From NCBI GenBank assembly GCA_934045905.1, contig OW203768.1:11250316-11314315 (forward strand): a stretch of 64,000 bases of DNA, in the 5' to 3' direction. The first letter of the stretch is position 1. Each line of letters starts with the position of its first letter. The position numbers and the translations under genes were made by a program. Positions 13,201 through 16,200 of the stretch are shown one piece after another. The notes beneath the pieces are model-generated. The model was not told the origin of the DNA. It made no database searches and was given only the letters and a program-made list of their open reading frames with translations. The DNA comes from Leuctra nigra (taxonomy: Eukaryota > Arthropoda > Insecta > Plecoptera > Leuctridae).

Positions 13201-16200
13201 TCGTTTTTACATTTGAAAATTTCGAAATTGCGCGCGCAGAGATCTGGCAACACAGCTTTCACCGCGCCGCGCCGTGCCAAGGTCGCCCGCCGAGAGCACT
13301 GCCTGCATTCCTCCCTCCCTCTACAGTCTACACAGTCCAGTCTTCCGGCAGCCTTGTTGTTGTTAACATCAGAAAGTCAACCACGTGTGCGTGAAAATGT
13401 TGCCGCGGAAAAATTTCATTCTTCCTACGGGAAAACGAAGTGATGTATGGAAGACTTTTAGGCAAGAGATAAATGAGTCAGGTGTTGTGATCGACAAGAA
13501 ACTCGTGTGGTGTACGGAGTGCTTAAAATCGGTTGCTTATTCGGGGAACACTTCAAACATGAGTCAACACATACTCAAGTGCGAGAAGAATTCGACACAT
13601 ACACGCGGTACGCCATCGATGTTGAATTTCATGACGTCAAGAAAAAAATTAGACGGCAACTCAGCGAAAGCCAATGACATTACGGCGGCAATAGTTCGAT
13701 TTATTGCAACTGATCTAAGGCCGATTAGTGTAGTGGAAGGGGAAGGCTTTGTTAATTTGTTACATGTTTTAGCACCTGACATAGACAGACATAGATCTGT
13801 GAGTTAACGCGCGAAAGTCGGGGTTTAGTTCGCTCCTGGGGATAATTGTTCTAAATGAAGGATTCTAATATTGCGAGTGTAAATATGTGTTAAAATATTG
13901 ATAATAAGCTAGTAGAAGCGTTTTGTGTATAAATATAAGTGTTTTTCGAATGTGGTAATAAGGATAATTGTAAAAATGCGTATTACCAGGCGATCGGTGA
14001 AGCTTAGTATGGACAAAGCACAGGGTGTGAAGGACAGCGACGCGGTGAAACAACATGTGGGGGAGGAAGGGCCGATGTGTGACGAAGACAAGGGATGGGA
14101 AACTGAGAGCGAGAGTGAGATAGAGAGTGTGGGGGGTGACGCGTTTAACCTGCTAGAGGGAGAGGTCAAGACGATGAGTGACAAAGACAATGAGAGGGAT
14201 GCTGAAAGTGAGAGTGAGTTGGAGACAGATGAGCTGGATACTGACAATTCGTGTGAGGACAATAATGACGTAACGCTATGTAAATATGATGATAGTTCTG
14301 ATGTATATAAAAGTGAAGAATATCAATACATTGAAAATGTTGGAATAATGAAAGAGGTTACGTTTTTGAGAAAAGAAGTTGAAGAAAGAAAAATGATGTG
14401 CGAACTCAGTTTTGAGACCAGAGTTTTTTTAATTGAACAAAAGATCAGTGCAATAGATTCTATTATGCAACAAATTGACAACTTGAGCAATTCTGTGCTC
14501 GAGTTGAAGATGGAAAATGCTGATCTCAAGCAGAAACTTGCAGCAGAGACTAACGCAAACTTGGAGGAGAGAAAAAGATTCCTGGAAATGATGCACCAGG
14601 TCACAGGCCGGGTGGGGGGTCTGCTGGAGAGAGAGGAGCAAGAGAGACGCGAGACTCTAGAGTGGGCTCTGGACAGAGCGAGGGAGAGAGAGAGCGCGCG
14701 GCTCCAGAGGGAAGAAGGAGAGGCGGCAACATCAACTGAGGAGACCGAACAGCTGAGCCAGGAGAAGACGTCCACGGTGTGCAAGACGGTGCGGGTGGTC
14801 AGGGGTGATTTGTTCGCCACTGACGAGTCAACTGCCCTCGCTCATTCGGTCAACGAATGTTTTTCAGCAAGCGGGGCTTTGGCTGCAGAGTTCGACGACC
14901 AGTTTGGGGGGCGCGACGAGCTTCTTGCGCAGAAGAAGAAAGTGGGCGAGGTTGCCGCCCAGCAGGCACGTGGGAGACACGTGTTTCACCTTGTGTCAAG
15001 GCGGACACAAGGCAAAACCACGCTACAAACATTGTTTTCGTGTTTAAAAGATCTTAAAAGTATGTGTATTGAGATGAGCATACGTAAATTAGCAATGCCA
15101 AAGATTGGTTGTGGTTTAGAAGGCTTCAAATGGAAGCAAGTGGAGCCACTGATCAACAATGTGTTTAAAGACAGTGGCATCGAAGTGTCGGTGCACTGGG
15201 TGAAGAAAGGGGATGTGGTCAAAGTAAGTGATGAGAAAGAAGTGAAGACAACTGTTTCTTCCCCTCCAGATAACTGTTGCGAGTTAGCCCAAAACAATAA
15301 AGTTAAAGTTATCGGAGACTCTCTCATCAAACACACCAGGGACATACTCAAGAGGAGAGGAGTGGAGTGTGAAAGTGACTGCTTCCCGGGTATTCGAATG
15401 GACCAAATGAAGAACGTGCTGGAGAAGAGGGAGCCCAGCAATGAAGAGATTGTCATCGTGCATGTCGGTACGAACAGTATTAAAGGCTGGAGGCGTTTTG
15501 GCAATGTAGTGAGTGATACGATGGACCTTATGGAGTGTATTAAATGTAAATTTCCTTTGGCAGACATTGTGGTTACAGGACTTGCGTGCAGAAGAGACGT
15601 GTGTAGAGACGAGATAGAGATGTACAATGAAGAGATTGGGTGGGTTGTTGAAGAACTTGGAGGACAGTTTGTAAATATTAATAGTTGGATTTGGGATGAT
15701 TGTTTGGCGAGAGATGGACTCCATCTTAATTATAAGGGTAATTATATATTTGCCAATGTAATGATGGGTATATTGGCAAATGTCAAACTCGAAGAGGGTA
15801 AAGGTGTAAATAATGATTTGGTTGCGATGGAGAAAGTTGCCGAGGAAAAAAACTAGAAATTGACAGTTGTACATATGATGCTTCTGGGCTAATAATGCAA
15901 TTAAATATACAGAGTATTTTCCAGAAGCGTGAAGAAGTAGAAAATTTAGTAATTAAATATAAACCATGTGTATTAGGATTGACAGAAACACACTTGATAA
16001 ATGAAATCGAGGACTGGGAAGTTGAAATTAGTGGCTATAGTGTAGTGAGAACAGACTCGACAAGCAGACACACAGGAGGTGTGTTGGTTTATCTCCTGAG
16101 TGATGTAAAATATAGTGTAATCAGTTCAAAAGTTATAGATAAATTGTTGTGGTATATCGTTGTAAAGATACATAATGGACAGCTTGCGGGTTTAGTTTAT

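Follow-up and report, generated by a model that had tools for sequence, protein, structure and literature searches.

The LINE described here, from Leuctra nigra, encodes in one unbroken ORF1 frame a macro domain followed by an SGNH esterase, with a reverse transcriptase (RT) ORF downstream, which confirms the fusion claimed in a preliminary description of this DNA. Since related proteins with the same pairing were found elsewhere, the macro domain looks like a lasting acquisition of ORF1. With a probability of about 0.5, we propose that a macro domain of the TARG1/ALC1 class was gained by an esterase-type LINE ORF1, and that the ORF1p-RNA particle would bind ADP-ribose, most likely at the nick of target-primed reverse transcription, a reading drawn from sequence comparison and structural models.

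Results

The window, i.e., the whole 64-kb stretch of DNA that was analysed, contains the element inside a BED/hAT transposase gene, with the following features:

13385..13780 (+): 5' flank with the BED zinc finger of the split hAT gene (Pfam zf-BED, E 2.4e-4)
13781..18976 (+): whole LINE, ~5.2 kb, with putative borders
13976..15856 (+): ORF1, 626 codons counted from its first ATG; the open frame begins at 13925
14327..14719 (+): Lys/Glu-rich middle part of ORF1, putatively helical or coiled-coil-like (weak Pfam matches; analogy with the P0020 helix)
14789..15196 (+): TARG1/OARD1-class macro domain, residues 289-424
14999..15001 (+): Arg359, aligned with catalytic Lys84 of TARG1
15119..15121 (+): Glu399, aligned with catalytic Asp125 of TARG1
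15302..15757 (+): SGNH esterase domain, residues 460-611, with the triad (Ser466-Asp597-His600) and the oxyanion residue (Asn517) both present
15895..18846 (+): ORF2, 983 codons, endonuclease-like N-terminus and reverse transcriptase (Pfam, motifs)
18926..18975 (+): 3' (TAC)n tail, 16.7 perfect copies
18977..20404 (+): 3' flank with the transposase portion of the hAT gene, including the dimerisation region (Pfam Dimer_Tnp_hAT, E 4.9e-19)

The element is an open two-ORF LINE of the esterase-ORF1 kind. Its ORF1 protein has 626-643 residues (open frame 13925-15856, +; first ATG at 13976), and 38 bases separate the ORF1 stop from the first ATG of ORF2. In ORF2, the reverse transcriptase matched Pfam RVT_1 (E 2.4e-32) and the endonuclease matched Exo_endo_phos_2 at E 1.8e-4, under the Pfam cut-off; the endonuclease and RT motifs expected of LINEs are present, among them YADD at 17962. 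A blastn self-comparison of the window revealed no repeat, LTRs included, of at least 150 bp overlapping the element, which combines an RT ORF with an endonuclease, the latter recognised by motifs and the sub-cut-off Pfam match. Base composition of the two ORFs is far apart (GC 0.42-0.50 and GC3 0.46-0.56 in parts of ORF1; GC 0.31 and GC3 0.30 in ORF2), a difference that would fit separate histories.

Cutting out 13781-18976 rejoins a 607-codon frame that runs from the BED finger into hAT, the cut having been chosen to fit this frame. The zf-BED match was made on an ORF (13385-13807) that continues into the LINE, and no Pfam domain of the rejoined hAT protein spans the junction, so that the exact borders were placed by frame and sequence look alone. 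When 13761-13830 was compared with 18966-19010 for exact matches, none exceeded 4 bp, so that no target-site duplication was seen near the borders.

Several other features were recorded in the window. A 1.9 kb stretch occurs twice (26037-27913 and 61927-63814; 97% identity) and includes an exon with similarity to the PRC2 tri-helical domain (E(z)-like); together with a further pair at 25630-25997/60616-60981 (99% identity), it represents a recent duplication or an uncollapsed haplotype. A tandem array with a unit of ~1190 bp and 99% identity extends over 49791-53437, each unit containing a 56-bp doublet. On the reverse strand, an open frame at 6608-7252 that resembles subunit 5 (ND5) of mitochondrial NADH dehydrogenase (Proton_antipo_M, E 1.2e-45; NADH5_C weak) is probably nuclear mitochondrial DNA, with a tRNA match nearby at 6004-6068, and two tandem SCARNA8 matches (9951-10077 and 10204-10329) each exceed the Rfam gathering score. 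Near the hAT gene, a 5S rRNA-like match at 20960-21079 (+), barely over the gathering score and partly in an inverted repeat with 31654-31815 (86.6%), is perhaps a 5S-derived SINE. The E(z)-like and ND5-like sequences make an arthropod host plausible.

Regarding ORF1, the macro domain matched TARG1 at E 4e-27, and its fold, confidently modelled by the structure prediction that had been suggested as a check, superposes on TARG1 at an rmsd of 1.1 A. Among solved macrodomains TARG1 is nearest in both sequence and fold, so the earlier assignment to the TARG1 type, beyond a merely macro-like domain, holds within the ALC1/TARG1 class. The SGNH domain found its best PDB match among SGNH entries in the ZfL2-1 LINE esterase (4c1b), which upholds its description as an esterase of LINE kind and, with Ser, Asn, Asp and His all present, places ORF1 in type IV (esterase); VIA-align rows show other SGNH hydrolases, and the lack of 4c1b there carries no weight. 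The middle part gave weak Pfam matches only (E 0.039 and 0.094, both under cut-off) and may be helical or coiled-coil-like, by analogy with an 89-residue helix modelled in the relative P0020.

The same macro-SGNH pair was found in four database proteins from separate contigs (P0003, P0004, P0005 and P0020), a recurrence that speaks against the one-off host-gene capture which the preliminary description had set against its own reading. A PHD-like N-terminal match was detected in P0004 (E 0.018) and P0020 (E 0.0011), both under the Pfam cut-off; Pfam gave no PHD match in the window ORF1, P0003 or P0005, the last being a partial sequence. This PHD-like finger and the P0020 helix are what LINE ORF1s would be expected to show and, together with the SGNH domain rather than a linked RT, suggest that the four are putative LINE ORF1s. 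Over the columns present in P0005, pairwise identity among these relatives was 44-54% in the macro domain and 48-50% in the esterase, and between them and the window copy 35-47% and 40-45%, respectively; the macro domain is therefore about as conserved as the esterase across LINE pairs.

In the macro-domain tree, the five LINE domains (window, P0003, P0004, P0005 and P0020) clustered as one group with a support of 85/77; the bootstrap is unsettled, and the single-group clade is not a strong one. The tree used 30 of 33 prokaryote/phage macro rows, less than 65% identical to each other, the 33 having been drawn from the 61 of 65 loci that yielded a macro row, and omits P0007, P0008 and P0023. 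Ordinary short TARG1 proteins are absent, the protein search having taken candidates of 0.55-1.75 times the query length, and for this reason the tree does not name the donor of the macro domain. Three further macro proteins, P0011, P0022 and P0024, clustered with the LINE domains (97/93) and have no recognised second domain; a retropepsin-like tail seen by eye in P0022 was dropped, as Pfam gave it no support.

Searches of viral contigs with the macro-SGNH profile A3 yielded 54 loci, all matching the macro part or slightly past it (none extending beyond query residue 183 of 363), and no matches there for the SGNH profile A8 or ORF2. Genome contigs gave 11 loci with bacterial titles, matched in the macro part (residues up to 147), and in the phage collection 11 records aligned with ORF1 over residues 292-425 only. 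Viral and genome loci were used for macro sequences alone. Another macro fusion, in a nick-sealing protein, is that of P0010 (LOGAN) and P0016 (LOGAN/ENA), where a TARG1-like macro domain lies between the DNA ligase catalytic part and a ligase-III-type BRCT (domains scanned in P0010, precomputed only in P0016).

The human enzyme TARG1, which removes ADP-ribose, is described as acting through Lys84 and Asp125 (PMC5087735, PMC9411070); PMC7050489 gives Glu125, and the TARG1 sequences in our alignment show Asp. Both Lys and Asp were present in 17/17 other database-protein rows, among them several vertebrate OARD1 and all four relatives (P0023 was left out of this count), so that the TARG1 dyad is kept in 4/4 relatives and replaced in the window copy by K84R and D125E. 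Among the 61 prokaryote/phage rows, position 84 was Lys in 52 and Gln in nine, and position 125 was Asp in 51, Gly in eight, Glu in one and Ala in one.

In a first count, the window copy was altered at 13/43 conserved positions, including 33, 37, 40, 43, 44, 83 (adjoining Lys84), 84, 91 and 125, a figure that favoured the other rows because they had helped to define conservation. A leave-one-out count was made with conservation set by the remaining rows, near-identical bird rows removed, P0007, P0008 and P0023 omitted, and 16 rows compared. At an 80% threshold, the window copy was altered at 13/44 positions, the highest of all rows, followed by P0024 (9/38), and the relatives at 1/35 (P0003), 6/38 (P0004), 3/27 (P0005) and 4/36 (P0020). 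At 90%, it was altered at 9/27, against 0 to 2 positions in the four relatives and 5/31 in P0024.

Discussion

What the relatives retain and the window copy has changed together suggest that the family probably encodes an ADP-ribose reader/eraser, of which the window copy may be a reader, an enzyme with a new specificity or one in decay. As to the preliminary proposal that the element may read or edit ADP-ribosylation, canonical editing by the window copy is not supported, since both TARG1 catalytic residues are replaced. A missing dyad need not mean missing activity, because the bacterial SCO6735, with Gln and Ala at these positions, hydrolyses protein- and DNA-linked ADP-ribose (PMC5087735, PMC9411070). 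The count of 13/44 altered positions also fits decay; however, macro identity lies near that of the esterase, and the window macro domain seems not to have been drifting freely for long. These comparisons fit a domain kept for fold or binding with its chemistry changed, and would be compatible with recent decay as well.

In the preferred reading, the macro domain would have entered between the N-terminal part of ORF1 (PHD and/or coiled-coil) and the SGNH esterase, and would allow the ORF1p-RNA particle to bind ADP-ribose attached to host proteins or to DNA ends. Most likely this would happen at the nick of target-primed reverse transcription, a site of PARP1 and PARP2 activity; there, the domain could tether the RNP to a PARylated target or free the priming end of ADP-ribose. 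As reported in PMC7050489, TARG1 substrates comprise mono-ADP-ribosylated proteins, O-acyl-ADP-ribose esters and nucleic-acid ends that carry ADP-ribose phosphoesters, and the enzyme can also release whole polymers. In most of the family the mark would also be removed in a TARG1-like manner, and in the window copy binding would be most likely, outside canonical TARG1 chemistry, because Arg/Glu stand in place of the Lys/Asp dyad. In human L1, PARP1 associates with ORF2p, to a lesser degree when EN or RT is inactivated (PMC5821459), and loss of PARP1 or PARP2 lowered L1 retrotransposition by about 50% (PMC8535693). This association and the effect of PARP loss would make the nick a natural meeting place. 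To our knowledge, ORF1p of human L1, the source of these PARP data, has no macro domain. Put as a history of the lineage, to which we give slightly less than an even chance, a TARG1-class hydrolase would have been gained once and kept with its dyad mostly intact, ORF1p would edit ADP-ribosylation at insertion sites or on silencing factors, and at least one branch, that of the window copy, would have become a non-canonical reader.

The macro domain might also act away from the nick, stripping or masking mono-ADP-ribose with which silencing or antiviral enzymes of the host would mark the chromatin, RNA or RNP of the LINE. This alternative arises because SIRT6 silences L1 by mono-ADP-ribosylating KAP1, whereby L1 is packaged into heterochromatin (PMC4695847), and it would agree with the removal of mono-ADP-ribose from proteins and nucleic-acid ends by TARG1 (PMC7050489) and with the dyad kept by four relatives. 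However, the host pathway is drawn from the cited L1 work and not from data on this animal, and the window copy lacks the dyad; we regard such a role as unlikely, and the present data do not separate it from action at the nick.

For the lineage of the window copy, the macro domain could instead be a passenger in decay, or serve structure only, its ADP-ribose function being lost, a reading that the two substituted catalytic residues and the altered positions (13/43, and 13/44 in the leave-one-out control) would support. Weighing against this, ORF1 is fully open and ORF2 is open, macro conservation in pairs with the window copy is close to that of the esterase, the macro fold was modelled with confidence, and the ALC1-class SCO6735 is active in the absence of Lys84 and Asp125 (PMC5087735, PMC9411070), so we find loss of function doubtful. 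A single copy that captured a host TARG1 gene, or an assembly chimera, would explain why no second ORF1 copy was found in the 64-kb window, but the continuous ORF1 frame and four more macro-SGNH proteins in separate contigs make either highly improbable.

A survey of ORF1 proteins in the Jockey superfamily lists as modules RRM, CCHC, PHD, coiled-coil, transposase-22, zinc-finger/leucine-zipper and esterase, with the esterase type in vertebrate groups only (Metcalfe and Casane 2014, PMC4120745). None of its five ORF1 types joins a macro domain to an esterase, and the word "macro" does not occur in its text, in agreement with the initial impression of an unfamiliar arrangement. Furthermore, among the top matches of literature searches in openly licensed PMC papers, none was seen to describe a macro domain in a LINE ORF1 or in a retrotransposon.

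Concerning the esterase, that of ZfL2-1 is reported to bind phospholipids, membrane targeting in RNP assembly being its authors' speculation, and the precise role of its ORF1p was termed still difficult to address (PMC3905857). Esterase-type ORF1 proteins have no settled function, and a domain with a known ligand, ADP-ribose, and a known chemistry provides a direct, testable handle on them. Some RNA viruses carry macro domains. If the preferred reading is true, a retrotransposon would likewise possess an ADP-ribose reader/eraser, joining PARP biology at nicks and mono-ADP-ribose silencing to ORF1p.

Compared with known systems, the element resembles zebrafish ZfL2-1 and the type IV ORF1 of CR1/L2 LINEs (PMC3905857; PDB 4c1b) as a two-ORF LINE whose ORF1 has a C-terminal SGNH esterase containing Ser-Asn-Asp-His, and differs in the TARG1-class macro domain before the esterase; the term "macro domain" is absent from the text of that paper. 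With ORF1s that carry a PHD in CR1/L2 LINEs (type III and variants; PMC4120745), P0004 and P0020 share the weak N-terminal PHD-like match, unlike the window copy, P0003 and the partial P0005. Among bacterial proteins, SCO6735 and DarG are ALC1-class macrodomains like the LINE domain, SCO6735 having Gln/Ala where the window copy has Arg/Glu. Finally, TARG1/OARD1/C6orf130, an ALC1-class ADP-ribosyl hydrolase, is alike in fold and sequence, and its Lys84 and Asp125 are kept by the relatives, whereas the LINE domain is fused to a retrotransposon protein and, in the window copy, bears Arg and Glu at the catalytic positions.
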